Shown here piece by piece: positions 945-57,590 of a stretch of DNA of 64,000 bases. The first letter of the stretch is position 1, and each line of letters begins with the position of its first letter. Source of the DNA: Zygnema cylindricum (Eukaryota > Streptophyta > Zygnematophyceae > Zygnematales > Zygnemataceae). Position numbers and translations under genes: made by a program. The notes under the pieces are model-generated. The model was not told where the DNA came from. It ran no database searches and saw nothing but the letters and a program-made list of their open reading frames with translations. The DNA is taken from positions 1-64,000 of the forward strand of contig JBBHKE010001500.1 of NCBI GenBank assembly GCA_037447655.1, read 5' to 3'.

Positions 945-1877
945 TCATTCCAAACGTTTAGTACTAACATATGCTATAAACTCCAAGTTAGTGTTTCCTC
1001 CACACAACTCTACCACATCCCCCAATGTATTTTGTTCGAAATAAAACCCAGCTCTATTTTTGCAAGTTAAAATCAAATCTTTCGGTTGTACCTCCCACCT
1101 TGTGTGTTCGACAAAATTAACTTTCAAATCTATCGCCGTTGTCGAACAATTTGCTTGAAACAAACTTTGATAGGATCCACAAAAAGATTTGACATTAGCC
1201 ATAACGTGTTTTTCTCCTCTTCTTCCAAAAATCGGAGGTTTGAAACTAATTAATTGAACTTCTTCAACTGTTAATTCCGATGGCAATTTGAACGCCGGTT
1301 TGAGAACGCATTCAAAACAAATAACCGGTTTTATATTATCTTCCAAGTTTCCGATCTCATTCAATTTATTCACACGATATCGTACTCCTCGAAAACAGTT
1401 ATCAAAAGCTTGGAGAGAGAATCCAGGAAGTACGAAACACAAAAAATCGTCATTTGCCTTGTTGGAATTGTCTCCCACATCAAACAACGTTCCATTCAAC
1501 ATAAGTTCAAAACCGTTTAAATCCACTTTCTTCGCAAAAACAACGGTGAAAAGCCCTTTATCCATGACCAAATCTTGCGGAATTGAAGCCCAAGGTTTAA
1601 AACCACATCCCCTTTGTCCGTAATCCACACCATGATGGAGATCATACGGCTCATGTTGGGACGCGAGCATATACGCTTTACAAATGCGACGCGACAACTT
1701 GCAAAATCTGAGCATAGATGTCTTGGAATTGTCCGTAAAAAAAAACTTACTCGGGGATAATCCAGAAATGAAAAAGACGCCGTTTGTGTTTACCAAAGCA
1801 TTTTGAATTGGGTGAAGCCAATCCTCGAGGTCCCATTCATTTTGAACAACCGGAGGTTTTTTTGTCGAAGTAGACAT
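945..1877 (-). CDS. hypothetical protein, 310 aa, intact frame
   Basis: An uninterrupted 310-codon frame from ATG at 1877 to a stop at 945, by far the longest intact frame here that is not part of a transposon. The amino-acid composition is balanced, with 8 or more Cys scattered through it, no signal peptide at the N-terminus (it starts MSTSTKKPPV) and no obvious membrane segment. I recognise no domain or catalytic motif. The start was chosen because it is the first ATG and the DNA just upstream (1880-2036) is a GGAAATT-type repeat unlikely to code. It could be a single-exon host gene, one exon of a larger gene, or an open frame of an unfamiliar element. The length and lack of stops in AT-rich DNA favour real coding, past or present. 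Function unknown. Confidence 0.55.
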   Translation of the reverse strand: MSTSTKKPPVVQNEWDLEDWLHPIQNALVNTNGVFFISGLSPSKFFFTDNSKTSMLRFCKLSRRICKAYMLASQHEPYDLHHGVDYGQRGCGFKPWASIPQDLVMDKGLFTVVFAKKVDLNGFELMLNGTLFDVGDNSNKANDDFLCFVLPGFSLQAFDNCFRGVRYRVNKLNEIGNLEDNIKPVICFECVLKPAFKLPSELTVEEVQLISFKPPIFGRRGEKHVMANVKSFCGSYQSLFQANCSTTAIDLKVNFVEHTRWEVQPKDLILTCKNRAGFYFEQNTLGDVVELCGGNTNLEFIAYVSTKRLE

Positions 1878-1879
1878 CG

Positions 1880-2036
1880 TAAATTGGAAAAGTTTTGGAA
1901 GATGTGAAAAATCGAATTTCCAGTTGGGAAATTGGAAATTGGAAAAAGGAAGTTGTGAATTGGAAATAGGAATTTGGAAATTAAAAATTGAGAAATGAAA
2001 AGTCGGGATTGGAAATTGGAATATGGAAATTGGAGG
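1880..2036. repeat. degenerate GGAAATT minisatellite
   Basis: About twenty imperfect copies of a 7-8 bp unit (ttggaaa, ttgggaa, ttgaaaa) directly upstream of the 310-aa frame. It may form part of its 5' leader or promoter region, but nothing in the sequence shows a function. Confidence 0.75.
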
Positions 2037-2950
2037 GAAATGCGGTAAAATGTTTGAGATTTGTTGTTTTTTTTATTTAACCTAAAAAAAATTAAGAGCA
2101 AAAAGGTTGTTCTACACAAAGGCAGGGGTCGAAAGGTTCCTCCTGCCACAAAAAAATAAAATTAGAGATAAAAGAATAAATGAACAAACAACGAAACAGA
2201 CAATAAAAACAAAATAAAAGTAAAAAGAGACACTTGATTATGAAAAAAAGTCCAATTCCAAAAATTGTTCTAAGAAAACAATGTAAAAGGCACTCACGAA
2301 TTTCTGTTTTACTCTTTTTCCCCTTTTTGTCTTGTTCCTTTTTCCCCCATACTCTCTAAAAAATGACGCGTGTCAAAAAAAAACATCCAAATCCACATTC
2401 CTGACTTCCTAAACCTTAAAAATTATAAAACTCTAAAAAAATCAATGAAAGGAAAAACCATTGCATGCCACGTCTCAGTTGCTCTCACCCTTATCAAATT
2501 GGAAACCATGGTTGCAAAAGAGGGAGAACATAAAAGTTGAATGTGAATATCGTCCTCTCTTTCCAGCAAATTGAAAATTCAAGCTTCCAAATTCTGCCTG
2601 CTAGGAAACCCTAAAAGCGAGAGTAACTTCGGAAACTTCCGAAAGTCAACCATTTTTAGTTTTTTACAGCATTTCAGTTAAGAAGAACTTTGAACGCGGT
2701 GAATAAATTTTTAAAAATCCACGTGTTTGAATGTGATTGCTGGCATGTGCGTAGAGAAACAAGGACTATAAACTAAACAACACAAGGAATCCGGGGATTC
2801 CGGGCAGACTCGAGCCTCTCGTCTGTTCCGTAGTTTAGTTTCAAATTTTTAATGTGCAAAAAACATTTGGAAACGCTGTTGTTCAAATCGTGCGATTTTT
2901 TCCTTTTTTGCAATTGCTACGTATAAGACGTGCCTGTTGAAAAAATCGCA
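2037..2950. other. AT-rich stretch, no gene seen
   Basis: A-rich sequence with short homopolymers. I find no coding frame, TIR pair or RNA gene. Confidence 0.6.
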
Positions 2951-2964
2951 AAAAATCGTGATGT

Positions 2965-3215
2965 ACTTACTGTCCGGTAAACTGAACGGGAAATTTACAT
3001 CACTGTACGGTATCTTATGGTAAATGTTCGATTTTGTACGAAAAATTTACGGACTTTGATGAAAAGATACGTTGCACTTCGTAGTACTTCCTGTCCGGTA
3101 AACTGAACATAAATTTTACGGGAAACGTACGTAATTGTACCGAAAATGTACGGACTATGACGAAAAGAGACGGGAACTGTACAAAAAATGTACAAACTGC
3201 GGTATATGTAAAATT
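2965..3215. repeat. tandem duplication, 120-bp period
   Basis: CTGTCCGGTAAACTGAAC occurs at 2971 and again at 3091, and the following ~100 bp (TACGG/GTACG-rich) align imperfectly. A related CGGTTAACTGAAC...TTTACGGCGACGTACG segment is at about 54468-54510, so this is a dispersed repeat that was locally duplicated. Overlapping minus-strand frames in it are repetitive and not supported as genes. Confidence 0.65.
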
Positions 3216-3240
3216 CATTTTTGGTTACATGTACGAAATA

Positions 3241-4838
3241 GTACGGACAAATTAATTAACGATTTTCAAAACGTTCAATGCGTTCGTTACGCATAATTCG
3301 TCGCGATTGAATTGTTCGCACTAAACGGTGTGAACAACAATGTTTGGAAACGATCTATTTTGTCAAATTCATACTATACGTTCACCGTTAAATTAAGCGT
3401 GCAACTCATAGTTCAAAAGTAAGCGTTTCTATTGTAGGCCTTTTGTAGGCGCCTTTATCGTAAGTTGTGTTATGGGCTTTTCATGTGATCTTCTTAAATC
3501 GCTACTTTGATCAGCGACCGTCCGATCGTCCGAATCTGACGGTTTAAATAAAAAATACCTCAAAACTCACAAAAAAATAATTTTTTGTCCGAATGTTTTT
3601 CAAAATTTAGACATGACGTTTAATTCTCTATCGATCGATGTGCAACTCAACCTTGTTACTATTTTTTTTCATTTTGCGACCAATACAATATGGGTCTTAA
3701 GGTCATATTGTATGGTTTTGCGTACAATAAGCATATTGTATGGGCCTACTTTCACCTACTTTTGAACTATGGAGCAACGAAACATGCATTGACCACATAT
3801 AGGGTTTCCAGTTGTTTTCGTACATTCAAAAATTTGAAATTTTGTCCGTATTGTTAGAACTTTGGAAACTGATGACTACAACGGACAAAATTTGAAGAAA
3901 ATATTTGATTCTATCAAAGTACAGTATAAATTTTAAAGTAGAAAGTCAAACTTCTAATGTGTTCCATTTAATACCACACCTTTTATGTATGTCCAAGCTT
4001 ACGAGAAAATCTTATGCCACGTGGCACGCATGTAAACCTAGCTCAAGAATCATAGATCATGATCCAGTCATGCATTAATACATTTTCACTTTTCATACAA
4101 AAACTTCAAAAAGTTGGCTTCCTGTTCAGCTTCTTGAGGACCATATATCAAAAGTGCAGTATTTTTAAAATTAGAACTGCGATTTAGTGCGCACGTGAAA
4201 TATGCAATAAAGTATTAAAATAGGTTTAGTGCGAAAAGGCCCATTAGAAAAGCAAAACTCAAAATATTGGAGAAGATTTTCTTTCCAAAGGACGCGACGG
4301 TTAAACGATTAGGTACAACCGCACAATCATGCTTCAATTGTAACAATTTTGACGACCACAAAATTCGTACGGACTACAAGCATAACAAACGCTAAGCAAC
4401 AATAAAAAAGTAAAAATTCGAAACTGAAAACTACGAAAACAAAGACAAATCTATACTAGCACTAAACACTACACCATACGCTAAAAACAATTGAAAATGC
4501 GAGCCCTCGCCCGCCAAACCTTAAGGCCATGCCACACTAAAAGCTCACAAGTACGAATATCCTCTATATGCACGTGGCAGTACGTTACGAACCACGGTCG
4601 TCATTCGCCGTCATGCGCTGTCGAATAAAGGCCGAAGATTCCGCAAGTTCAATGGCGAGAGAGATACTCTGAAACTAGAAAGCCAACATGAAACATGGAA
4701 AAGGATTACCACTTTTACCAAGTCCTCTTAACTTCCAAAGATTGTTTAGTTCGATTACGTAAGCTGTCGAATGCCGATTTGAGGATTATATCGGCATGAA
4801 CAGCACATCAATACATTCAAAATTGGGAATATAAATTG
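3241..4838. other. AT-rich intergenic DNA, no gene seen
   Basis: No frame longer than about 60 codons, and no structural RNA or paired termini that I could recognise. Some stretches (e.g. around 3300-3560) have GTACG-rich motifs like those in the MITE-like sequences elsewhere in the window. Confidence 0.55.
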
Positions 4839-4851
4839 TAGTGTTGGGTAT

Positions 4852-5071
4852 TGAAACTCTGAGACCTCCATTGGCCCTCAGAGTATGAAGATCCAAAAGA
4901 AGCTAATCTAGATAGTGCCGACTCCAAGTTGATATAAACCCAAATGACTTACCCCTTGACAGTCAGAACCCCAATATAGATTCACCCCTGTGAAATAACA
5001 CTTTCTGTGTGCTCAGTTCCACCACAGAATGCAAAGTTAGAATATGAGATTTGGACACATTCACCCACTTT

Positions 5072-5075
<4 letters not shown>
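4852..5075 (-). repeat. fragment of a B/I-type copia LTR (3' end)
   Basis: The minus strand matches the last ~220 bp of the LTRs at 24350-24569 and 33180-33401: the stretch with 'ttgcattctgtggtggaactgagcaca', then 'ggggtgaa...tattggggttctga', ending in an imperfect palindrome and ...TTTCA. It lies inside element J directly after its left terminus, so an LTR probably inserted there and was then truncated at the (TA)n side. Confidence 0.7.

Positions 5076-5076
<1 letters not shown>

Positions 5077-5158
<82 letters not shown>
5077..5158. repeat. (TA)n microsatellite
   Basis: About 40 uninterrupted TA units. The minus-strand frame across it (Ile-Tyr repeats) is an artefact. Confidence 0.95.
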
Positions 5159-5162
<4 letters not shown>

Positions 5163-5937
5163 CTATCAAGTAGAATCCTCGATATACCGTAACGAGACCA
5201 ACATAAACCATCGCGATATATATCGTGATATATAGTATTTTTTTAAATTTAATATTTTATATTTTTATGTAATATGTTATTTTAGCGAAAAAGACAAATT
5301 GTCTGATACGCCACGTACGACGTGATTTTCGTTCCGTGACTTAAAGGTAGACGCCGCAAATGTAACCGACAAAAAAATACTAATTCTGTAATTCATATAA
5401 TTACTTATTTGGGGTGTGATTACATCAGGAGGTCTCTGTAATAGTACGGACAACAAAATTTATATATTACAGAGGCCTCGGTTACATCGCGTATCGTCTG
5501 TAAACAAGTTTTTAGATACGTGTTTTGATTTGAGTAGTTCCTTGTAAGTTGACGATCAACTCTCTAAAATCGTCAGAGATTTGAAAACCGACCATTTTCG
5601 TATGGAAATTCGTACTTGCGTATTACGTAGGTGTACTTCGCAAGTGTACCGCGTCATTGTACCTCAGAGATCTCCTTCACTCTGCTGACTTTCAGGAAAA
5701 AAACGTGTTTCTTTTCGGCAATGATTTTAGTGTCACCTTGTCCGAAGGCACGTGACTTTGGAGACCTCTGAAAATTTTCTTTTTTTTTAAATGCCTCGAT
5801 ATATTGGCGATACGATATATCGGAGATATATCGCGATATTTTGATTTTCGATATATCGAAACGATATATTGATTATCGGGTACCTGAAACTCGATATATA
5901 TCGGATACCGGCAAAAGTTCCTTGATACCCAACACCA

Positions 5938-11761: not shown

Positions 11762-12814
11762 TGTTGTTCTACAACCACCGTTGCAAGAGGAGAACCAGCA
11801 GTAGTAGTGGAAGTAGACATGAACACTAACAGAAACTATCAAAGTACCTACTCAACAGCCAACTTTGAACTGACACAAAATATGACCCAGAAACCCAATA
11901 TGCTTCAAATTTTCCACAGCTATACAAAATACAGTAAACTGACAATTCCCAAAATTGCAGCCAAAATGACTTAGTAAACCATAAGATATGATATTTGGAA
12001 GTTTCCCAAAAACCGCCCTCATAAAATCATATTCCTAAAACTGGATACTACAAAATTGGCGAAGTCCTAAGTTATATACTCACAGTGTGTATCTACTGAT
12101 CTACACTAATTTGGGTTACCGTTACTACGGTTATTATCCTGACTAACGACAAAGCATCCTACCTGTACGTCACTGTACCTTAAAAACCCTAATTATTATT
12201 TTCTAAAAACTTGATTAATAGAACACTATTTTTTATTACACTAAACTACAAACCAATGTTATTCAGATATTTACAGATATTGAACCGTACACAAAACGTT
12301 CCAACTGTACACAAAACGTTCCGAATGCTTAGTCAGCGGTAATCGCTAAAGTCCAGCCGAATGTGGTCGTGTAGTACGAAGCACCTGAGTGCTTCGTAAC
12401 TTGTGGTCCCACGCGAATCATGCTTGTGGTCCCTCGTGAATCACGCTTGTGGTCCCTCGTGAATCACGCTTGTGGTCTTGGGTGAATCGCGTCCGTTGGA
12501 GAAAATTCGATCGACGATGGTAACGTCGAACTGTACCATATGTTTTCGGAATACCCGTGTCAGATCCCGTTTTTCCGATCATGTGAATCGAATCGTCAAC
12601 TGTTTTGACACGTATGGCTGACTGTCGGCGCCACTCCAAAAAACCTGCATACGTTCTTTCGCCAACACGTGTCCTTGCAAAAGTACGATACACTATACTG
12701 TACTATTTGCTATTGCAACGCTAATAAAGGTAAGTATTACAGTAGACTACTAGGAAAATATCCTAAGTTATTTTTACCCCTATTTACTGAAATAAAGATT
12801 TATAAATTACAACA
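11762..12814 (-). repeat. 3' LTR of copia A (complete, 1053 bp)
   Basis: Minus-strand termini are TGTTGTAATTTATAAAT (12814) and ...GTAGAACAACA (11762), so TGTTG/CAACA bound it. A gag start codon lies inside, at 11820, 59 nt from the LTR end, encoding MSTSTTTAG-like residues. Compared with the 5' LTR it has two extra copies of a ~27-bp unit (cttgtggtccctcgtgaatcacg) at about 12420-12480. Confidence 0.9.
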
Positions 12815-17117: not shown

Positions 17118-17122
17118 TGTAC

Positions 17123-23517: not shown

Positions 23518-24569
23518 TGTTGAAAAGAAGTAATTAATATTCACTTATTTATTTAGACTCTAAAGTGAAGAGAGAGAGAAAGAGAGAGAGTCACCATGGC
23601 TGCCGCCATAGTCAGAAAGAAATAGGGAAATAGACAGGCATATTGATAGATTACCAAAATGTAGCCCTTAGCAGCATTTAAACCTGGGTCTACGGATATC
23701 TATGTAGACGTGTGCCTTATCCAATTAGGCGTTAACGAAACGATACAGGTATATCGTTCGGTAATTAAGTAAAGTGTTATAGAAACGTCACTTTGACTTA
23801 AACAGACCAAAATTGACGAAACGACATCTATAGTCATTCGGCGCTCGCGGACGCGAATCTAACTAAGTAAAATATATGATTGGACGACCGTCGTCGCCCC
23901 GGCCAAACTCGAATGAATCTTCGGCGTCTTCCAGACAGCGCGGCGCATTGCCACGTGGCGACACATCATTGGACACCAGTAAAGATGGGAGGACGAACGA
24001 TGGCTCCCAAGTTGACAAGTGTCAACCAGAAGGCCATGTTGTACAATGGTCGTACAAGAAGTACAATCGGCCACTGTACCTTCTTGTACTATACACTCTT
24101 TCGATTAGCCTAGGGTAGAGTAGTAGGTAGTTATGAGTAGGAGTTAAGGGACTTAGCGTATTTGAGGCGCCTCTCTCCAGGTGACCTTTTCTATTTATAG
24201 GCCATTTTTGGCCAGCCTTAACTTAATGCTCGGGTGAGCAAATTCAGTGATTCTTTTTGCTGCGTACTCAATGGGAGTCCAAGCTACACGGGGGTGTAGT
24301 CGGTCAGAGTCTTTGCGTGTTATGGTGGCACTTATTCAGTGGGAAAGTCAATGTGGGGAGTATTGTTCAAAATACATATTCAAGCTTTGCATTCTGTGGT
24401 GGAACTGAGCACATAGAAGGTCTTCTCTTCATAGGGGTGAAGGTGTATTGGGGTTTTGATTGTCAAGGGATCACTCATTTGGGTTTTTATCAACTTGGAG
24501 TCGCCACTATCTAGTTTAGTTTCTTTTAGATCTGCGAATTATATGGGCAATTGTGCCCATAGAATTTCA
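23518..24569 (+). repeat. 5' LTR of copia B (1052 bp)
   Basis: TGTTGAAAAGAAGTAATTAA...CCCATAGAATTTCA. Features in order: a purine stretch, CCATGGCTGCC, an antisense tRNA-like module (23665-23735), a CACGTG G-box (23952), a cluster of GTAC motifs (about 24035-24090) ending in TACTATACACT (possible TATA element), and near the end the gag start codon site. Here that codon is ATT in place of ATG. Confidence 0.9.
23665..23735 (-). promoter_or_regulatory. tRNA-like module in LTR (A and B boxes)
   Basis: Minus strand: CGCCTAATTGGATAAGGCAC resembles a tRNA A-box region (as in tRNA-Arg, CCTAATGGATAAGGC), and 30-40 nt further GGTTTAAATGC resembles the B box (GGTTCRANTCC). The same arrangement recurs at matching positions in the other B/C/D/H/I-type LTRs. 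Whether it recruits RNA polymerase III is inference. Confidence 0.6.
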
Positions 24570-24584
24570 GGTTATGGGCCCACC
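24570..24584 (+). promoter_or_regulatory. primer-binding site, initiator tRNA-Met anticodon arm
   Basis: GGTTATGGGCCCACC directly follows the LTR's terminal CA. It is complementary to GGUGGGCCCAUAACC, which I know as the anticodon stem-loop of plant initiator tRNA-Met. It is not the usual TGG-starting site matching a tRNA 3' end. It is also coding: V-M-G-P-P of gag. Confidence 0.82.
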
Positions 24585-25806
24585 CTCTAGGGTGCCCATA
24601 TTTAATGGATCTGACTTTCTTTATTGGGAAATGATGATGGAGGGAGAAATTTTTGAGAAGCACCTATGGGGCATAGTATCCGAGCAATTTCGATGTCCAC
24701 CTCTACCTACGTTTGGAGGAACACGTTTTTCTGGCGCCTCCACCACCACAGCCACCATCACGAACGATGACGAGGAAATGGATGAGATAATCATGGAAGG
24801 AGAAAAGGGACGAGTTGCTTCTCGAGGTACTTCATTATCAAGTACGATACCGACAGCAGCACCACCAGCAATGGTGACAAAGAGTCAGACCGAACGGTCA
24901 AAATATGAAAATTGGAACTATAAAGACAAGGTGGCTAAGCTACTAATTCTCAAAAGTGTAGTGAAGGGTATTGCCATTCCCTTTATGCATGTTAGATCTT
25001 CCTCTCAGATTTGGGTATCTCTTGTAAACAAATATAAGAGTGGGTCATTGCAGTTGCAACAACTGGCAGAAAATAAGATTTCAGCTTATAGTTACAAGGG
25101 AGAAAGTATGAATGATTATTGCAATGACTTAGGAGCATTATTTGGAGAATTAGAGAGTGCAGGTAACTCATGGTCTGAGAGACAAAGAGTAAATACACTG
25201 ATAATGAAACTACCTGAAGAGTATGAGAATATCATTAATCGGTTGCAAGATCTAGGTGATAGCAATTGGAATTGGGATGATACAGTGGGGATGATTTTAG
25301 TGAAAGAGAGTACCATAGAACTTAGGAGAGGAAGTCTGAGTGTTCAAGCATTGGCTGCAGGATCTGATTGGCGGAAGCGTGATGAGGAAAAGGGAAAGGA
25401 TCCCTATCGAAACTTTGGAGGAAAAGGACAAGGAGGTGGCAGATTTGATCGACAGGGGAGAGGAGCACCTCGAGGTGGATTATGTCACTTCTGCAAGAAA
25501 CCGGGACATTATATGGCAGATTGTGTCAAGCTTGCAGATCTCCGACTGAAAGATGGACAAGGTTCCTCAAAAGATGGAGGAAAGAAAAAGGCTTTTCTGA
25601 CTCAAGTTCATGACGAGGAAGAAGATGACGTAATCGAACTGGAAGAGGAGCTTGAGGAACTTCTTCTTAAACCAAAAATTACTGAGAAGCATGCTGACAC
25701 TCTACGGAGACAAAAGTGTGCTTTCGGAGGTAAGAGGGATCCACCTGAGGATGGGTGGATCATAGACTTAGGGGCCTCAATGCATATGTGCAAGGATAAG
25801 AGGTAG
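24570..25806 (+). CDS. gag: copia B Gag with start of protease
   Basis: Open from inside the 5' LTR (upstream of 24553) to a TAG at 25804, about 417 codons. The canonical ATG in the LTR has become ATT, so the first in-frame Met is the one inside the primer site (24574, MGPPSRVPIFNG). Order: N-terminal block with FNGSDFLYWEMMMEG, a UBN2/gag-type helical region (SVVKGIAIPFMHV ... QIWVSLVNKYKSG ... YNDLGALFGEL-like), a Gly/Arg-rich stretch, a CCHC zinc knuckle CHFCKKPGHYMADC (25483-25524), an acidic segment, then GWIIDLGASMHMC, the protease start with DLGA for DTGA. Gag packages element RNA in particles. This is the best-preserved gag in the window. Confidence 0.85.
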
Positions 25807-27297: not shown

Positions 27298-28340
27298 TGT
27301 TGAAAAGAAGTAATTAATATTCACTTATTAATTTAGACTCTAAAGTGAAGAGAGAGAGAGAGAGTCACCATGGCTGCCGCCATAGTCAGAAAAAATAGGG
27401 AAACAGACAGACAGATTGATAAACTACCAAAATGCAGCCTTTAGCAGCATTTGAAACTTGTTCTACGGGAGTCTATGTAGACGTGTGCCTTATCTTAGGC
27501 GTTAACGAAAAGATACACCTATATCGTTGGGTAATTAATTAAAGTGTTATAGAAACGTCATTTTGACTTAAACATACCAAAATTGACGAAACGGCATCTA
27601 TAGTCATTCGGCGCTCGCACACGCGAATCTAACCGAGTAAAATATATGATGGGACAGCCGTCGTCGTCCTCGCTGAACCCGAATGAATCTTCGGTGGCTT
27701 CTAGACATCGCAGCGCGCTTTGCCACGTGGCGACACATCATTGGTCACCGGGAAAGATGGGAGGACGAACGATGGCTCCCAAGTTGACAAGTGTCAACCA
27801 GAAGGCCATGTTGTACAATGGTCGTACAAGAAGTACAATCGACCACTGTACCTTCTTATACTATACACTCTTTTGATTGGCCTAGGGTAGAGTAGTAGGT
27901 GGTTATGAGTAGGAGTTAAGGGACTTCGCGTATTTGAGGCGCCTCTCTCCAGGTGACCTTTTCTATTTATAGGTCAATTTTGGCCAGCCATAATTTAACA
28001 CTCGGGTGAGCAAATTCAGTGATTCTTTTTGCTGCGGACTCAGGGGAGTCCAAGCTACACGGGGGTGTTGTCGGTTAGGGTCTTTGCGAGCCAGGAAGGC
28101 ACTTATTCAGTGGTAAAGTCAAAGTGGGGAATATTGTCCAAAACACATATTCAAGCTTTGCATTCTGTGGTGGAACTCAGCACAGAGAAGGTCTTCAATT
28201 CACAGGGGTGAAGGTGTATTGGGTTTCTGATTGCCAAGGGATCACTCATTTGGGTTTTTATCAACTTTGATTCGGCACTACCTAGTTTAGTTTCTTTTAG
28301 ATCTGCGAATTCTGTGGTTAATAGAGCCCATAGAATTTCA
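27298..28340 (+). repeat. 3' LTR of copia B (1043 bp)
   Basis: Same termini and modules as the 5' LTR: tRNA-like module 27440-27512 (minus), G-box 27724, GTAC cluster. Ends CCCATAGAATTTCA at 28340. The gag start position reads ATA. Confidence 0.9.
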
Positions 28341-33401: not shown

Positions 33402-34003
33402 ATAATCATTCAAACTGATAATTGTACTTCTACTAGATATTCATACTATTTTTTGTGTATTATCTATATTAGTCCAGCTATTATTACGTATAATCAGTAT
33501 AAGTGAAGTTTTTAGTATGTATATTTAGTGTTTTATAGTTAGTAGTTTGTATAATCAGTATTAGTTCAGTTATTAGTCCTTATAATTAGCATTAAAACAA
33601 TAAAAGTCAGTATAATAAGTATTGATACAATGATTAGTCAGTATAATTAGTGTTAGTAAATTTAATAATAGTGTTTAATTAGTATTAACATGGTTATTAG
33701 TCTATATAATTAGTTTTATAACAGTTATTAATATGTATTAGTTTTTTTTTTCCATCGGTGTTTTGCTTTTCTTTTTTGACATTACATGTTCTCTTAGCAT
33801 TAAAACAATAAAAGTCAGTATAATAAGTATTGATACAATGATTAGTCCGTATAATTAGTGTTAGTAAATTTAATAATAGTGTTTAATTAGTATTAACATG
33901 GTTATTAGTCTATATAATTAGTTTTATAACAGTTATTAATATGTATTAGTTTTTTTTTCCATCGGTGTTTTGCTTTTCTTTTTTGACATTACATGTTCTC
34001 TTA
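33402..34003. repeat. AT minisatellite part 3 with 208-bp tandem duplication
   Basis: 33588-33795 is repeated nearly exactly at 33796-34003 (start AGCATTAAAACAATAAAAG; both copies contain ccatcggtgttttgc). Confidence 0.85.
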
Positions 34004-40032: not shown

Positions 40033-43000
40033 CCATATATTTAGCTTCCATGGTAGATTGAGCAGTCACATTTTGAAGCTTGCTCGTCCAGCAGCAAGTA
40101 CCATCACCGATCTTCAAAATGAATCCAATGGTAGAGCGTCGGCTTGGCATGTCACCATAACTCGCATCACTCCAAGTGCTAATTTTCACTTCATCTACTC
40201 CGAGAGAAAGTGAGATATCCCGTGTTCTTACAAGGTATCTGAGAACTCGTTTTGCTGCCTCCCTATCTGATCTTTTCGGGTTCTGAAGGCTTGGCTCAGA
40301 GCTCCAACTAACGCTGCAATATCAGGACGCGTGCATTTCATGAAATAGATAAGACTCCCAACAACTTGTTTGTAAGGAATTGTGGACATGAACTGTGACT
40401 CCCTTGGTTCAATGTCATCCTCGAGTAGCATTCCTCCATCTGTCTCCTTTCCTTCCACTTTGTGCCTAAACTCCATAGGGGATGCACTCCCATTTGCCTT
40501 TACCATGCCAAATCTTTCAAGTACATTTCCAATGGCCTCTCTCTGAGTGAGATAAATTACCTTCTGATTCCTATCTCTCTCTACCTCAATGCCTAGGATA
40601 TACTTTGCCTCGCCTAAATCCTTCATTTCAAACCTGGCGTTCAGAGATGCTTTTCTCTTATTTATCTCATTTATAGACTTACTAATAAGCAGCAGGTCAT
40701 CTACATACACTACTACATAGTTCACACCATCCTCTCCTTCCATGACGTAAACACAATGATCTAAGCTGATCCTTGTGAAACCTAGACTAGTAAGAAACTC
40801 ATCTAATTTCAGATTCCAGTGACGTGGAGCCTGTTTTAATCCATACAGTGATATCAACAGTTTACATACTAGATTTTCCTTTTCTTTTTTTTGTATACCC
40901 TTCAGTTTGTTTTATATAAAGTACTTCCTCTAAATCTTCATGCAAGAACGCAGTTTTAACATCCATTTGATGCAGCTCCATATTCTCTATTGCAGCTAAA
41001 GACAACAAGACAATGACAGTGGGAAAATTGACAACATTAGAAAAGGTTTCCTTATAGTCTATTCCTTATTTTTGACTAAAGCCCTTTGCAACCAGACGAT
41101 CTTTATACCTTTCAATAGTGTTGTATGGGTTCAGCTTCACTTTGAAGACCCACTTGCAGCCAATGGCTTTCCGATCAGGTGGAAGCTCCACAAGCTCCCA
41201 CATCAGAGCTTCCAGAATCGATCTCATCTCATCATTTGCAGCTGCTATCTAGTGATCCATTTCAGGAACACAAAATGCTTCCTGGATGGTAAGAGGCTCC
41301 CGGTGCTTCCAAAAAAAGCATATTGAACATGTTCTCCCCTCAAGTGAGAACTTTGTCTTTTTCCCCCGACAAATCTGAGGCTAGAACTGTTGGATCTCGA
41401 CTTCGATTTTTGGTTCGAGGAAGATTAGTGTCAGCTGTTCTTTGTTGTTCAGTTCTTGAAGGTATTTGAATATTTTGCACTCCAGGAGAAGAAGAAGTTG
41501 AAGTTGTAGATGACTGAAACGGGATCTGATCCAAGATGACATATTCCTGCAGTTTTTCGTTCTTCTCACTTTCATCCATACTAAATACATCTATGGATTC
41601 ACTCTCATCTTTCACCAAAATGTTTCAGGCAATCTGAATGGTATGTTTCTGAGGACAATATACTATGTATCCTACATATTCATCATCATATCCCATGAAG
41701 GTTCGAGGTTTGGACTTTGGGCTTAGTTTCCAGTTTGGTAAATTATCTAGTATAAAGCATTTCCTACGAAACACTTTGAAGTGACTAACATCTGGTTTTC
41801 TACCTGTCCACACTTTATAAGGTGTTTTTCCTTGAACAGATCTAGTTTCTAATCTGTTCCTAATATATGCTGCAGTTTGATAAGCTTCAGCCCAAAACTT
41901 AATATCTACTCCTTTATCAGCCATCATAGATTTAACACTCTCAGTTAGAGTTCTATTCAACCTTTCTGAGACTATATTCTGCTCATGAGTATATGGAACA
42001 GTAAACTGATGAGAGATACCATTTTCTTTTAAATAAGCAGCAAATTCATTGGAAGTATATTCACCTCCATTATCAGATCTTAGAGAAAGAATTGATCTGC
42101 CGTGAAGCTTTTCTGCCCAGATCCGAAAATGTTGAAAGTGGGTGAAGACCTCTTTTTTCTCCTTCATAAAATAGATCCGGCTGAATCTGGAAAAGTCATA
42201 TGTGAATGTAACAAAGTATTTACTCCCATCTCCCAGCCAAAGATGGTATTTTGGAGGGTCCTTACACATCTGAATGGATAAGTTCCAAGAGATTAGTTGC
42301 TCTAAAATCTGCGGTTTGAGGTAAAGGAAGTTTATGAAGCTTACCAAGAGCACAACCATCACAAATATTTGACTATTGCTGACCAAGTTTAACTCCTTCT
42401 ACCATATCATTCTTTACCATCTTTTCGAGCCTGTCGCTATGACATGACCCAATCTTTTATGCCACAAAACATTATCAGATAAGACACTGGAGTAAGCAAA
42501 AGAATTTGTATTCACCAGGTCCATCCAGTACAAGTTGTTAGGGCCTCTAGTTCCCATTACAGCTACCCTTCCCTCTTTGCTGACTATTTTCTTTCCTTGC
42601 TTCTGAAGTATTTCAAAGCCTTTACTTTTTGCAACTTATGTAGAAAACAAACTCTTTTTAAACTGAGGGACATACAACACATCATAGAGATTTCTAGGAA
42701 CTTCCTTGCCATCTATCTCACACATAAGGATGACAGTCCCTTGGGCTTTTGCGTCAACTGTGGCACCACAAGCATAGTAGATCTGTCTAGTGGGGATAGG
42801 TTGCAGATTTTTGAAAGAGGCCTTGTTCCACCACATATGAGAAGAGCTTTCGGAATCCATGATCCATCCGTGGTCTTTGTCTCCCTCCATCAGTTTAGCA
42901 AGAGCGAAGAACTGTTTGTCGTCAGTTTTTGGAAAACTGACAACATCCAGCACATTTTCCTAATTGACGACTCCAAATGCGGTGCGTCAACTGAAAATGC

Positions 43001-43941
43001 CTCAATTTTGGAAGGGGGTGGCGGTGGTGTAGAAGGTGGCATTTGTGGTGTGTAGATTCCTTTTGGCCCCCATCCATTTCTGAACACACCTTTCTCACAA
43101 GCTTTGAGAAACTTAGGACAGTGTTTGTACAGATGTCCTTGACTGTAACAATAGAAAAACTTGTTGTAAGATTGAAAACCTTGATAACCCTAAGATATGT
43201 TTCCTTGATACTAAACATTAAAAGCTACAGAAGACTTTCCTTGATTAAGAGCTATAACTGTTGACTCTTCCTATAGCAGTAGTTCTATAGCTGTTGCTAG
43301 ATTCTAGATTGACTTATCCAATTTTTTTAAACTTGCTGAGGCTCCTTTATATTCTTTAGAAATTCCTTGCATAAGAATCATAGCCTGATGGTAAGGGGAG
43401 AAGTTCCCCCCTGAACATGCATTCTCTGTTAGTAAAAGCCGAAGTCCATTACAGTATTCTGCCATACTACCACCTGTATACTTATAGTCCCAAATGTTTC
43501 CAGCTGTAATAATCTCATGGTGAGCATAAGCTTTTAGGTAGATGTTTTTCAGTGAAGTCCAAATTTCTGACGCCTTTTTCATCTTAATATGTGACATAAG
43601 CAAATCCTCTGAAATCATTAACTTTAAGAGATGCAAAGCCTGCTGATTTTTCCCACCATAGGATCCATCCCTTTCAGCAAGACTGCCATCAACTACATCA
43701 AATAGTTTAACTTGAGTAAAATAAGACTCAACCAAATCAGACCAATAAAGGTATTTCCTTCCATCAAAAATTGGTATCCGTGAGGGTGGGCCCGTAACCT
43801 GTTGTTTTGTGGATACTACACCCACTGAAGATAAAGGTATTTCCTTCCATCAAAAATTGGTATCCGTGAGGGTGGGCCCGTAACCTGTTGTTTTGTGGAT
43901 ACTACACCCAGTGAAGATGAAGATGAGGCAGGAGTAGTCAT
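40033..43941 (-). pseudogene. copia E gag-pol remnant
   Basis: Gag start at 43941 inside the LTR (MTTPASSSSS). An 86-bp tandem duplication (43745-43916) breaks the frame, then gag continues 43825-43304. The zinc knuckle near 43150-43110 lacks its first Cys (FYCYSQGHLYKHC). Protease reads WIMDSESSSHM (D-S-G changed to D-S-E). Integrase 42386-41625 keeps LRSDNGGEYTSNEF and SERLNRTLTES. RT 40857-40228 is the best in the window, with an intact YVDDLLLIS box (about 40710). RNase H runs to STMEAKYM at 40033. Frameshifts at 42390 and 41050 and several stops remain. Confidence 0.88.
43785..43885 (-). promoter_or_regulatory. duplicated primer-binding site of copia E
   Basis: Minus strand GGTTACGGGCCCACC at 43885-43871 and again at 43799-43785, each after ...CAACA. 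One base (C for T) differs from the exact match to the initiator tRNA-Met anticodon arm. The doubling comes from the 86-bp tandem duplication. Confidence 0.75.
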
Positions 43942-44754: not shown

Positions 44755-47195
44755 TTCAAAACAACAAGTTTGAGGTCTTTAGTTCTTGCCAAATATCTAA
44801 GGACTCTCCTTGCTGCATCAAAATCAGATTTTCTCGGATTCTCTAGACTCCTTCTCAGTACCCCAACTGCTGCAGCAATGTCAAGACGGGTACAGTCATG
44901 AAATATATTAAGCTTCCCACTATTTGTCTGTAAGGTATTTGTATCATAAAATCATTCTCCCCTAACTCTAAATACTCGCTAACAATGACACCTGGTTGTG
45001 TCTCTTCTCCCTCTAACTTTTGCCAAAACTCCATTAGAGTTAGACATCCTTTTGCCCCCCGCATTATATACTTATCTAACAAGTTTCCAATAGCCTCTAT
45101 TTGAGTCAATTTTATTACTTTTTTATTTATGTCTGTAACAGGGTTACAGAATTGGGTACTTAGTAGCTAAGGCTAGGCTGCTATGGTTGCGATTTCAGAG
45201 CAGGATAGCTCCCAAAATTCCGGATCCACATTTTTATCTGCGAGCATGGACCTAGAGCTCTCTATGAGAGTTCTATTTAATCTCTTCGACTTCCCATTTT
45301 ATTCCGGTGAATATGGAAAAGTCAATAAATGACTTATACCTTCCTAGAGTAAAATGGTTTCAAATTCCTTCGATGTATATTCACCACCATTGTCCGATCT
45401 GAACTGCAAAATAGGGAAATTATGAAGTTTTTCAACCCATGTTTTATATTGTTTGAAGTGACCAAACACTTCACTCTTTTCCTTCATGAAGTAAAATTTT
45501 GTAAACCTAGAGAAATCATCTGTGAAAGTGACTATATATTTCATCCACCCGGCGGATGGATATATTTCATCCACCCGGCGAATGGAACCTTCGCAGGACC
45601 AAAAACATCTTAATGAATTTGTTGTAAAAAAATTGTCGACCGATGCTCAGACTCTTAAGGAAATGGCAATTTGTGGATTTTGCCTAAAGCGCAGCCATCA
45701 CATGTTTTGACCGGTTGATTTGTGATTGATACACCCTCTATTTTTCCAGCAATGACCATGTTTCTTACTCTATCATAATTTACATGGCCTAATCTTTTAT
45801 GCCACAGCTCATCTGAGTGCATTACACCGGAGTACAGAACATCATTCTCCTTGGTATAAGCCATATCCATGCGGTACATCTTGCTATTATCTCTAGTACT
45901 TGTAACCACAAATTTTCCATTTATGCTAACAACCTGCCGACCATTTTTCAAATTAACCTCAAAGCCTTTACTCTCTACCAAAGACGTAGAAAACAGATTT
46001 TTCTTAAAGTCAGGCACAAATAAGACATTGTGAAGAGTTCTTTCAATTGCCTTGCCCTCCAAATCCACTAGCAAAGACACATCACCCAGAACACGAGTTC
46101 GAACACTCATTCCACAAGCATAATAATTTTTTTCTCTGGCGTTTTTTTCAAATTTTTGAAGATGGCTTTGTTCCAACACATATGGGCTGACGCTCCCGTA
46201 TCCATTATCCATCCAGCGTCCTTCGCGCCCTCCATCGCTGCTGCCATAGCGAATAGATCCGTTTCATCTTCCTCATAAAATGTTAAAGTCTCATCCTAGA
46301 GTGATGAAGACGCTGAAAACAGTGCATTTCCACAAGGTGTATACCCGGTGAAGTTTTTGTAAAACTGACTTTGTTACCATCCCGACCTATATAAACCTTT
46401 ATCTTTAGCTTTTTTAAGCTTAGGACAAAATTTGTATCCATAACCTCTCTCACTACAATAAAAACATGCATTGTTGGATTGTCTAGTCCCACCCTGATTA
46501 AACTTTCTGAACTGATTAAACTAATTTCTTTGCTGATTAAACTGTCCTTTCCTCTCAAAGTCTGAATTAAAAGCTTTTACCTTCTCAACATTGAGAATAT
46601 TAGATGTAGCTTCCTCTTCTAGCAAAATATTGATAGCTAACTGCAAAGTCCAGCTAGCTTTATCTTTCTGTTTGAGCATATCAGATGCTCCTTTCATACT
46701 ACGAGGGAGACCCATCATTAGCAACGCTGCCTGTTGAAACTGAGGAAACTCCCCACTTGCACAAGCATGTGCATCTACAAGGATGCGAAACTTGTTAGAA
46801 TATTCAGCCATTGTACCGCCAGTGTACTTATAGTCCCAAATTTTTCCAACCAATAAGAGTTCTTTTAGCTTTTTCATACAAATTTTAAGAGACTTCCAGA
46901 TATCAATTGTTTTTTACATTTTTATCCGAGACATAGCTAAGTCCTCAGATATACAAAATTTCAGAATAGAACGAGCTTGCGTATTTTTCTTAGACCATGA
47001 CAGATCAGATTCATCCAGCGAACCATCCAATATATCCAAAAGATTGACATTCTCAAAATGTGTCTCCACCATATCCGCCCAGTAAACATACTTATCCCCG
47101 GAAAAGATAGGAATTCTAGATGATAGGCCCATAACCTGTTGTTCTACGACCACCGGTGCAGGTGGAGGAGCAGCAGTAGTAGTAGAAGTAGACAT
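44755..47195 (-). pseudogene. copia F gag-pol remnant
   Basis: Gag starts at 47195 in the LTR (MSTSTTTAAPPPAPVVVEQQ) and continues through VMGLSSRIPIFSGDKYVYW, with a stop near 46915 and a second part at 46877-46521. The zinc knuckle at about 46475 reads CFYCSERGYGYKFC (His to Tyr). The protease MDTGASAHMC is intact but in a frame shifted from the open one (about 46205-46170). GAG-pre-integrase LWHKRLGHVNYDRV follows at 45810. Integrase 45574-45344 keeps TFTDDFSRFTK and FRSDNGGEYTSKEF. A 24-bp duplication (tatatttcatccacccggcg, 45533-45584) lies at its start. RT survives only as 45109-44760 (QIEAIGNLLDKY, YRQIVGSLIYFM). Confidence 0.85.
47122..47136 (-). promoter_or_regulatory. primer-binding site remnant of copia F
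   Basis: Minus strand GGTTATGGGCCTATC directly after the LTR end CAACA. The first 11 bases match the initiator tRNA-Met anticodon arm; the last four have diverged. Confidence 0.65.
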
Positions 47196-48105
47196 GATAC
47201 ACTCTCAGAAGCTATCAAGAATCCTACCATACAGCTGTTCTTAAGTGCTTGCCAATTCTTATACAAGCATACAAACCTCACAAAACTCTATCAAAATATA
47301 GAGTAGCATAAACACTGAGAACTCCCAAAGTTTCAACACAATTCACCCGACAACACTCAAGATATAATACTCAGAAATTTCCCAAAAACTGTCTGCAGTT
47401 TTACTACTTGGAAGTCAGGATACATAATATGTTATGAGTCCTAAGTCTTATACTTGTGTTGAACTGACAATACTAGTGTACTTGAGTGGTACGTCAAACC
47501 ACCAAGCTACCACTAATCTGAGCTACCACTGGGCTATCACTAAGCTACCACTGAGCTATAACTAAGCTACCACTGAGTTTACCCATTAAGTTACCACTGA
47601 GTTACCCACTAAATTGACTAGAATCATATCTATCGCAGTTGCTCTATTCTGTAAAGAATCACATTAAGAATATCAGACGCTGCGTTGTCTGTACGGACCA
47701 TATCAAATATAATCGTGGTTGCGTTGTCCTCTCTGTGTTGTAGCTTTGCTGCTGCGCTGCTTTGCTGCTGCGCTGCTTTGCTGCTGCGCTGCTGCAGTGC
47801 TCTATCTGTATAGCAGCTGCACTGCTCTGTCTATATAGCAGCTGCGCTGCTGCGCTGCTTTGAGACTGAAAGATTTCCAAAAGACAACAAGGGTGCGTCT
47901 CCATGTACTTGAAACTTAGAGATAACACTTTGTTTTTTAGCGCAGATCCGGCGAACCCGGATTTCGGGTGTCCTTTGTTGAGATTTGAAATTTTCAGTTA
48001 GTAAATAGAGTAGACTTAGAATAGTTTCTAAAAAGTGGTATATAAGACTTACCTTTATTAGTGTAACAGTAAGCAAAGTACAATAAAGTTTATTGTACCT
48101 CTACA
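47137..48105 (-). repeat. 5' LTR of copia F (969 bp)
   Basis: Minus-strand TGTAGAGGTAC...GTAGAACAACA with gag ATG 59 nt from the end. Contains two short tandem arrays: (AAGCTACCACTGAG)-like units at 47500-47590 and GCTGCGCTGCTTT-like units at 47745-47860. The latter explains the Gln/Ala-rich frames there. Confidence 0.78.
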
Positions 48106-49929
48106 GGTTTTACGGAGTGACGTTTACATGCGTCACGCAGCAGGCAATTGGAATCGCCAGATCAAACGGACGGAATCTAATCCGGATATCTCGGAAAATA
48201 TATGGTACGGCTATTTTTGGAGTCATACAGATATTTTGGAATTATATGGTACAGAATATTTTTATGATCATTAAATAGAAACGTCTGGATATTTCGGAAG
48301 TGACTTATGATCATTGATTTTGAGAGACATCGACGGACGCGATTCACATGGGACCGCAAGTGACGAGGCGAGATTTACGTGGGACCACAAAGTGACGAGG
48401 CGTGATTCACGTGGGACCACAAGTGACGAAGCACTCAGGTGCTTCGTGTTGTTTTTAAGAAAGCTTTAGTCCTCTCTATGCCTCAGTTGTGAGGGAGAGA
48501 GAGCTGTTCAGGACTTAAGTTATTTTTGGTTGAGTTCGGTTCAGTACTTACCAAAATTAGTGTGACAGTGAAGTTGGGAGTTCACGGTTCATTCACACTT
48601 GGGACACGCGTCGTCACTTGAGAGAAATGCGTGAGTATGTCCTTCGTGGACGTACGGGAATTCGGCAGGACCACCGGAATTCGTGAAGTCAATTCTAGGG
48701 TCCCAAATCCTCTAATCGGACGGTTGACAGCCGGCGCCAACAAATACTGACAAGGCGTGACTAGATCACTATCGGCGAGACTAGATCACTATCACTTTAC
48801 GTTGTCTGAACTTCGGTGTATATAATTGGTAGAACAGAATTTTGTATGTACTGAATTAGTTGTTTAGTGTTGAGAATGTGGTTTATGACATACCTTCAGT
48901 ACACAGGTATACTCACAGTATTTGTTGTGTTAGAATGTTAGATGTACGGCTGGAATGCCTCCGTACAGCTTAGTGTAGTTTCGGTGTATAGAAGTAGGAC
49001 TTAGTGAATTTGATTCATTAGGAACAAATGATATGAAAACTGTACACTCAGTTTTATGTAATTTCATTTCTGCATATCTCATAGATCTGTGAGTAGAATT
49101 CACTGAAATTTTGTGTGTTTGTTCCTTTTTATGTTATCTACACTGTGTTTAATTTTCAGGACCATTGGGTTTTTTTTGGAAAGTAATAGTCTGTCAAAGT
49201 TGCTGTTCAGCCATCGGTATTTGTGGAAGCTTCCTCTTTTGATTTGTTATACGATGACTACTGCTGCATCTTCTTCATCTTCAGTGCCGGCAGTTGTCTC
49301 AGAACAACACTTCGTACTACACGACCACATTCGGCTGGACTTTAGTGGCTACCGCTGACTAAGCATTTGGAACGTTTTGTGTACGGTTAGAACGTTTTGT
49401 GTACGGTTCAATGTTTGTAAATATTTGAATAACATTAGTTTGTATTTTAGTGTGATAAAAAAATAGTGTTCCATTAATCAGGTTTTTAGAAAATAATAAC
49501 TAGGGTTTTGAGGTACAGTGACGTACAGGTAGGATGCTTTGTCGTTAGTCAAGATAATAACCGTAGTAACGGTTACCCAAATTAGTGTAGATCAGTAGAT
49601 AGACACTGTGAGTATATAACTTAGGACTTAGCCAATTTTGTAGTATCCAGTTTTAAGAATATGATTTTCTAAGGGCAGTTTTTGGGAAACTTCCAGACAT
49701 CAAATCTTATGGTTTACTTGGTCATTTGAGCTTCAATTTTGGGAATTGTCAGTTTATTGAATTTCATATCATTGTGGCGAATTTGAAGCATATTGGCTTT
49801 CTGAGTCATATTTTGTGTCAGTTCTAAGTTGGCTGTTGAGTAGGTACTTTGATAGTTTTTGTTGTTTTTCATGTCTACTTCCACTACTACTGCTGGTTCT
49901 CCGCCTGCAACGGTGGTTGTAGAACAACA
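48106..49929 (+). repeat. A-type copia LTR split by solo LTR G
   Basis: 48106-48446 and 49315-49929 together resemble the A-type LTR (…cgaagcactcaggtgcttcg | tactacacgaccacattcggc…). The left terminus is missing. It ends GTAGAACAACA at 49929 with a gag ATG at 49871, 59 nt inside. What follows (49930 on) is not gag, so it is a solo or truncated LTR. Confidence 0.82.
48447..49309 (+). mobile_element. solo LTR G (863 bp)
   Basis: TGTTGTTTTTAAGAAAGC...GTCTCAGAACAACA with perfect 5-bp duplication CTTCG (48442-48446, 49310-49314). Carries a gag ATG at 49254 (MTTAASSSSSVPAVVSEQ), 56 nt from its end, matching the copia E gag start. Confidence 0.92.
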
Positions 49930-52102: not shown

Positions 52103-52872
52103 TAGTGTTGTGTATTGGTTAAAAATTTATCGCAAGAACACCGATACCGATAGTTGTCGGTTATGGAACGACCAGAGGTCTCGATATATCAGTCAGAGAC
52201 CAACAAAATCCATATCGGCGATAACTTTTAAAAAATATAGTATGCATACAATAGTATTATATAACATACTGTATTATATTATTTACTTTATATAGCGTGG
52301 GATGCCATATAATGTATTTGTTGCGTATCTGTTTAATTAAAATCTATTACGCACAACGCAACAAATAAACGTCAACAAATTTAAAACAATAATTTAAAGT
52401 TATAAAATTATAGTATTGAAACGAACAAATTAAATTGCTTTGTAAAATTTTAAGTCAAACTTTTTTCGAAAAACATACGTTCAAATGAACAGATCAAACG
52501 AGCATATCATTCAGACTGTTGCCATTTACTGCAGCCTACTACCACCGTTTTTTGACGATCCAGGGGCACTTATTCGAGGAAATATTAGTTTTTTATAAAA
52601 GAGTAAAAATATATAGTTATTCATTGCGATTTTTTACCGGAATCAGGGAAAAGGGGGTCCGCGGCGCGGCCGAGGAATAACACGTACAATTGAGTGTACT
52701 GGCCATACATTTATCTATGCGGTCCGTACAGATATCGTTGATAGTTATCGATATCGGTTATTTATAGGCGATAACATCGATAACGATATATCATACCAGT
52801 ATATCGATTATCGGCTACCCGGAAAAAGGCCCATATCAGTTATCGGCAAATCCTTACCAATACACAACACTA
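52103..52872 (+). mobile_element. hAT-like MITE K (770 bp)
   Basis: Terminal inverted repeats TAGTGTTGTGTATTGGT / ACCAATACACAACACTA. Flanks AAAATTAG (52095-52102) and CAAATTAG (52873-52880) form an 8-bp target duplication with one mismatch, as for hAT elements. The interior has repeated CGATAT/ATCGG palindromes. No transposase frame. Confidence 0.8.
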
Positions 52873-52883
52873 CAAATTAGTAG

Positions 52884-53115
52884 TAGTCTGTATCGCTAAG
52901 GATATGCCGATAACCGATATGGGCCTTTTTTCGGGCATTGGTACGATTTATCGACATCGGTCTTATCGCCGATAAGTAGCCGATAATATCGGGTACTAAT
53001 CGGCAATAATGTCGATAACGATAACTATCGGCGATAACTTTACGGACCGTACAGATAAATGTACGGCCTGTACACTCAACTGTACGTCTTATTCCCCGGA
53101 CGTGTACATTGCCAA
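52884..53115 (-). mobile_element. K-family fragment in inverted orientation
   Basis: Begins TAGTCTGTATCGCTAAGGATATGCCGATAACC and follows the reverse complement of 52640-52872 through 'gataaatgtacggcctgtacactcaa'. It lies 11 bp from K, so the two form a large inverted repeat. Confidence 0.75.
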
Positions 53116-56979: not shown

Positions 56980-57590
56980 TTACCTTTCCACCCAGGCACT
57001 TTCCATCTCCATATACAAACATGAGAGATCATTACAATAGTCTAACATCTTTTCGCCTTTGTAAGTATAATTCCCTAACTTTTGTTCGGCCAGCTTAAGC
57101 TCGTGAATCATACCAACACTATAGATTTCCACCAAACTCGCCCACAACTCCTCGGCCTCATGAATGTGAAGATGAGGGGTTGCCATAGCTTGAGTGACTG
57201 TCTTAGAATGAAGTTTTTCACAACCATCTTGATGTCTTCCCACGTTTGGGTGTTGTTCTCCGCGGTCTTCACGGTCGTCGCTCTAGGTGTCGTGGTAATA
57301 GGAGCAATATGAGTAAGAGGCGTCTCCTTCTTTTTCCCCTTTTCGGACACACTGCTGTCCCCATCATCTGCCTCCTCTACCGCAGCACATGCTGCTGTAG
57401 AAAACCTTATTTTACCAAACCTTGGTGGAGTTCCCTGAGGTGGACGTTTTACTTGTTTATTGAAAATACCCCAGTATCGTTTTTCGCACAAAGCCCTTGT
57501 CATCATGGCTTCCCAATAGATGAACCCAGATCCATTGAAGGTGGGTACCCTAGAAGGTGGGCCCATAACATGCAATTTTGTGTCCTCCAT
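56980..57590 (-). pseudogene. copia H gag fragment
   Basis: ATG at 57590, 20 nt inside the LTR: MEDTKLHVMGPPSRVPTFNG, then FIYWEAMMTRALCEKRYWGIF. A frameshift near 57200-57240 leads into MIHELKLAEQKLGNYTYKGEKMLDYCNDL, ending near 56980. It is close to copia B gag (FNGSDFLYWEMMMEG, YSYKGESMNDYCNDL). No zinc knuckle remains. Confidence 0.82.
57556..57570 (-). promoter_or_regulatory. primer-binding site of copia H
   Basis: Minus strand TGTTATGGGCCCACC directly after LTR end ...AAATTGCA: 14 of 15 bases match the initiator tRNA-Met anticodon-arm complement. It also encodes V-M-G-P-P of gag. Confidence 0.78.

Follow-up and report, generated by a model that had tools for sequence, protein, structure and literature searches.

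The Ty1/copia elements of a 64,000-nucleotide stretch of DNA (the window) appear to start minus-strand DNA synthesis from the 5′ half (nucleotides 1-39) of the initiator tRNA-Met (tRNA-iMet) of a streptophyte algal host, a reading to which we assign a probability of about 0.9. The primer-binding site (PBS) of element B, GGTTATGGGCCCACC, was found to be the exact complement of linear nucleotides 25-39 of the host tRNA-iMet. In the proposed course of events, tRNA-iMet would be cut after nucleotide 39, in the anticodon stem, and its 5′ half would anneal to the PBS; reverse transcriptase (RT) would then extend the 3′ end of the half into U5. The same RNA would also serve for Gag synthesis, with ribosomes reading across the PBS.

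To locate this motif, the window was searched for the 15-mer with up to three mismatches, and six places were obtained, against a mean of 0.57 in shuffled sequences; none of the 100 shuffles reached six. Elements B, F and H held one of these places each and element E two; the remaining one, with three mismatches at 52159-52173, was treated as chance. In each of the four elements the PBS stood directly after a ...CA end, that of B reading ...GAATTTCA, and the matches that had earlier been given for H (14/15), E (14/15) and F (the first 11 bases) were all recovered (Table 1). The LTR end of E was set by likeness only, because no LTR partner was found for this element. An 86-bp tandem duplication at 43745-43922 doubles both the PBS and the gag start of E.

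Table 1. Long terminal repeats (LTRs), primer-binding sites and coding regions of the elements in the window
Feature	Position	Strand	Remarks
A 3′ LTR	11762..12814	-	LTR end F-like, ...GTAGAACAACA
B 5′ LTR (TG...CA)	23518..24569	+	Pair 90% identical to 3′ LTR
B PBS GGTTATGGGCCCACC	24570..24584	+	15/15 complement of host tRNA-iMet nt 25-39
B gag open frame	24574..25803	+	First in-frame ATG is the ATG within the PBS
B 3′ LTR	27298..28340	+	Same end bases as 5′ LTR, then GATTCGG, not the motif
E pol pieces	40231..42959	-	Protease-like (Pol_BBD), integrase, reverse transcriptase
E second PBS copy	43785..43799	-	14/15, inside 86-bp tandem duplication
E PBS	43871..43885	-	14/15, ATG to ACG
F PBS	47122..47136	-	13/15 overall, first 11 bases match
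F LTR end	47137-47218, 83 bp	-	Adjoins F PBS
H PBS	57556..57570	-	14/15, first base G to T

The 3′ LTR of element A (at 11762) and the LTR copies ending at 49929, 33401, 4852 and 40032 were followed by unrelated bases without the motif. Since these five LTR ends and the 3′ LTR of B all continue without it, the motif is internal to the element, and its being a part of the LTR was ruled out. A 5-bp target site duplication (TSD), GTACA, with the matching flank at 17118-17122, was observed for A, and none was found at the LTR ends of B.

We determined the sequence of the presumed primer from the genome itself. A 21-mer of the iMet anticodon arm had six exact places, and all six were called tRNA-Met(CAT) by ARAGORN. 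These genes carry the plant-type stem CCCAC. The earlier note had described the site of B as an exact complement of the plant iMet anticodon stem-loop, with the plant and not the animal stem, and both points held for the six host genes. In Drosophila copia and yeast Ty5, iMet is the primer through a 15-nt stretch ending after nucleotide 39, in the anticodon stem; the same tRNA and the same stretch are matched here, with a different stem base, as the stem is the plant-type CCCAC. The D loop of the host iMet seems to be one base short, so that its linear nucleotide 39 would be position 40 in standard numbering, in agreement with the half-tRNA 3′-OH at nucleotide 40 given for hemiviruses in PMC1181622. 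The duplex predicted between the PBS and the iMet 5′ half ranged from -33.2 (F) to -45.7 kcal/mol (L015) in seven elements, against a mean of -15.5 and a minimum of -32.1 kcal/mol in 500 null windows.

In the genome as a whole (352.8 Mb in 2,689 contigs), 5,974 perfect matches to the 15-mer were counted, a figure that includes the six iMet genes, compared with six for the reversed control. A 12-mer of the conventional 3′-end iMet site gave 389 copies against 10 for its control, which means that the 15-nt half-tRNA site is about 15 times commoner than the shorter conventional one. Chance similarity as the source of the motif was ruled out by these control counts together with the window shuffles. 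Loci were taken from the first 100 of the 5,974 places listed, a non-random draw: the first 20 were fetched with 10-kb surroundings (two were cut by contig ends), and from the 52 that followed, 40 were taken with 275 bases each. The 12 passed over mostly lay close to a further site, and the final 28 of the list fell outside the sample. In these 60 loci there were 67 sites, which comparison over 215 nt reduced to 59 distinct ones.

For 10 of the first 20 sites an LTR partner was obtained whose end is no more than 12 nt away from the motif, and the other 10 had no such partner. When the LTR pairs were re-aligned without the motif (L030 was omitted, its match being short and 74% identical), the alignment ended at the first motif base in eight of nine and stopped 10 nt short in L023; the re-aligned LTRs were 87.7 to 99.8% identical. 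Perfect 5-bp TSDs were present in five of the six loci with readable outer LTR ends (L015, L019, L022, L028 and L031, with none in L016), and CA made up the two bases preceding the site in 55 of the 59 distinct sites. At one locus (L018), open frames resembling, by eye, Ty3/gypsy RT and integrase lie beside the half-tRNA copia site.

Between -5 and +100 of the 67 sites no 3′-end iMet site (TGGTATCAGAGC-like) was found, the best candidates having 5 or 6 mismatches out of 12, as random windows do. A conventional 3′-end iMet PBS was thus ruled out for these elements, just as had been claimed for the site of B. A TGG located 5 nt into the site makes a tRNA ending in GGUGGGCCCA a formal alternative, the 3′-end comparison having covered iMet only; we know of no tRNA with this ending.

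In all four elements of the window (B, E, F and H) the site was also found to be part of the gag frame, a point absent from the earlier note. In B the frame across it reads CAG GTT ATG GGC CCA CCC (QVMGPP) and continues as gag, with a match to Retrotran_gag_2 and a zinc knuckle below cut-off. The gag frame of H, MEDTKLHVMGPPSRVP, has its ATG 20 nt upstream of the PBS, that of E, QQVTGPPSRIPIFDG, runs over the PBS, and in F the gag ATG (47193-47195) is situated within the LTR, 59 nt before the PBS. In 50 of the 59 distinct sites, the LTR contains an in-frame ATG at a distance of exactly 20 nt before the site, with no stop up to the junction codon, and the PBS thus doubles as gag codons. This was the nearest such ATG in 49 of them, one site having an additional nearer ATG, and the junction codon itself was a stop in two of the 50 (L051 and L069). 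In the other nine sites, and likewise in B, the frame from -20 was closed or the ATG absent, and the first in-frame ATG was that of the PBS. A stop at the junction or within 38 codons past it was counted by eye in 19 of the 59 sites, as expected of decayed copies; two fetched copies had open frames of 1,444 and 1,500 codons through the PBS, long enough for gag-pol. A genome pattern for the encoded motif gave 4,382 matches against four for the control. Among 100 listed places of this pattern, inspected by eye, the first PBS base was A in 13, while GTA was read in three and GGT in one; the first-base A could have arisen after insertion, by C-to-T decay at a CHG site.

Given this coding role, the motif might be only a conserved Gag motif (QVMGPPSR) which resembles the tRNA complement by accident, with priming taking place elsewhere. 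Such an account fits the coding position of the motif, which is shared by the four window elements and most of the genomic sites, as well as the conservation of SR[IV]P just downstream, and because the same bases encode the conserved QVMGPP, protein constraint could keep part of the motif. The codons flanking the PBS (TCT and AGG) were nearly as constant as the PBS among the 100 listed places, whose families are closely related, so that protein constraint and PBS constraint are inseparable here. Nevertheless, we consider a purely coding motif very unlikely, for its first base directly follows the LTR, in the place required of a PBS, and an exact 15-nt match to iMet at that border would hardly occur by chance. 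Moreover, pairing to the tRNA stopped at base 15 in 40 of the 59 distinct sites; it reached base 16 in 17 sites and extended beyond it in two. Neither a 3′-end iMet site nor a self-primer was found.

Still less credible is that an intact tRNA-iMet binds through its anticodon loop as a packaging or dimer bridge, with priming at another place or at a nick introduced by the RNase H associated with RT. Folding leaves the loop of the tRNA single-stranded, and the cut in the tRNA is something we infer, both of which leave room for such a bridge; however, the match starts at linear nucleotide 39 in the anticodon stem, on the 3′ side of the tRNA, which is the copia/Ty5 position, and the elements showed no further site that would pair with the acceptor end of iMet. 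Self-priming from the LTR in the manner of TAR elements, for which nothing but the absence of a 3′-end iMet site speaks, can practically be dismissed, as the longest complement to the element's own 5′ LTR did not exceed 7 nt in any of 10 elements, against the at least 10 nt required by Neumann et al. (2019; PMC6317226).

Priming from the tRNA-iMet half thus appears to be by far the best reading of the site. It had been proposed in the earlier note and is strongly supported by the exact complement, the LTR-flush position, the 5-bp TSDs and the lack of both a 3′-end iMet site and a self-primer. Against it count the A at the first base (13 of the 100 listed places), which would mismatch the last base of the primer, the two mismatches in F, the lack of a TSD in B, and the half of the 20 sites that lack an LTR partner near the motif.

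Two of the fetched loci, L019 (~1178-5676) and L031 (~1244-5607), were much reduced in content, with ~1.88 kb between LTRs that are 99.5 and 99.1% identical, respectively. Each contains one long frame, beginning after an early stop in L031, in which the only matches were copia Gag and, at a score under the curated cut-off, a zinc knuckle; no protease, integrase or RT was matched in the domain search. They look like recent gag-only, non-autonomous relatives. Elements of the TR-GAG type are terminal-repeat elements coding only for Gag, and L019 and L031 are alike in having two LTRs and Gag only, but differ in that their gag retains the half-tRNA PBS.

The assignment to Ty1/copia was examined with the coding regions. 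On the minus strand of E, whose pieces were searched apart, the domains followed the order Retrotran_gag_2, Pol_BBD, rve and RVT_2, which is the gag, protease, integrase and RT order of Ty1/copia (Pseudoviridae). In an RT tree, six pieces from A, E and two further elements formed one clade with 100/100 support; the other 35 rows were picked from the best 120 of 4,172 RT matches, and B, F and H had no row. As these best 120 matches were at most 46% identical, the search neither pointed to a close relative nor allowed the lineage to be named. A PDB search with the RT piece returned no match, and a Gag homology search accepted 0 of 4,951 candidates at E 0.001.

In order to place the host, we took a single gene that lies beside an iMet gene on contig C384 (19 kb), spliced it by eye and searched with it. 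Among the matches listed, the best was 96% identical; the following ones did not exceed 69%, whether they came from Mesotaenium, Closterium or land plants. In a 40-row tree (the query and 39 of 120 listed matches), the gene grouped with Closterium, Mesotaenium and Klebsormidium, and a 100/100 split separated it from 29 rows holding named land plants, among them gymnosperms and the moss Physcomitrium. Its place beside Closterium and Mesotaenium had weaker support (83/76 and 84/82), and the Klebsormidium branch was long. For psaA/psaB, the assembly yielded short fragments only. The host is thus probably an alga of the streptophytes, and it may be a zygnematophyte, although this placement comes from one gene and could be wrong; the land-plant setting assumed in the earlier note found no support.

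Half-tRNA use by hemiviruses of the copia/Ty5 type is supported in PMC1181622 and PMC10886601, the latter also giving anticodon loops, including the iMet one, as used by fungal copia elements. The ICTV sets Hemivirus apart by a short tRNA segment as primer (PMC8515867), and the present elements agree with it, by sequence only, in an initiator-tRNA segment of this kind. The earlier note knew of no described land-plant lineage with such a site. However, in Neumann et al. (2019; PMC6317226), a 1/2tRNA-Met PBS is already given for the plant Ty1/copia lineages Osser and Bryco and for some of Gymco-II, next to a 1/2tRNA-Ile PBS for Bianca, and Bryco is from mosses and Gymco from gymnosperms. Bryco shares the PBS type with our elements, but its hosts are mosses, whereas here the host gene groups with streptophyte algae; Gymco-II differs in its gymnosperm host, the same single gene being split from the gymnosperm-containing rows at 100/100; Osser, known from the green alga Volvox, agrees in PBS type, the one feature by which it was likened. 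Yeast Ty1 also has its PBS within the GAG ORF but, according to PMC4974528, primes from the iMet 3′ acceptor end with a bipartite PBS. In searches of the open-licence literature, covering the top of the longer result lists, neither elements of this sort from zygnematophytes nor a half-tRNA PBS inside gag came to light. The elements are thus of a known kind, and what is added is the probable algal host and the embedding of the PBS in gag.

As a speculation that we hold to be rather unlikely as a whole, a hemivirus-type copia clade apart from Osser, Bryco and Gymco-II may dominate a zygnematophyte genome, its PBS (gag codons 7-12) being merged with the gag start so that the PBS AUG pairs with the CAU anticodon of the primer and acts as first gag start where the upstream frame is closed. 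Occupancy of this AUG by the tRNA half or by the ribosome-borne initiator tRNA could then switch the RNA between copying and translation. More generally, the sequence evidence places half-tRNA-iMet priming in an apparent streptophyte alga, which may belong to the closest algal relatives of land plants, and supports it as old or recurrent in the green lineage and not an oddity of mosses and conifers. The young copies, with LTRs ~99% identical, make the mechanism testable in the host, and the overlap of PBS and gag start offers a simple system in which one RNA is shared by translation and reverse transcription.

Some further features of the window were recorded. A 375-codon open frame at 948-2072 on the minus strand had no Pfam match, and a 208-bp tandem duplication at 33586-34003 was 99% identical. 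A large imperfect palindrome, 73% self-complementary over ~436 bp (52667-53102), is perhaps a foldback element. From 61696 to the end of the window at 64000, and on to ~65099 of its contig (C1123; locus L076), four copies of an 857-bp unit were arranged head to tail, the second to fourth being 93-97% identical to the first.
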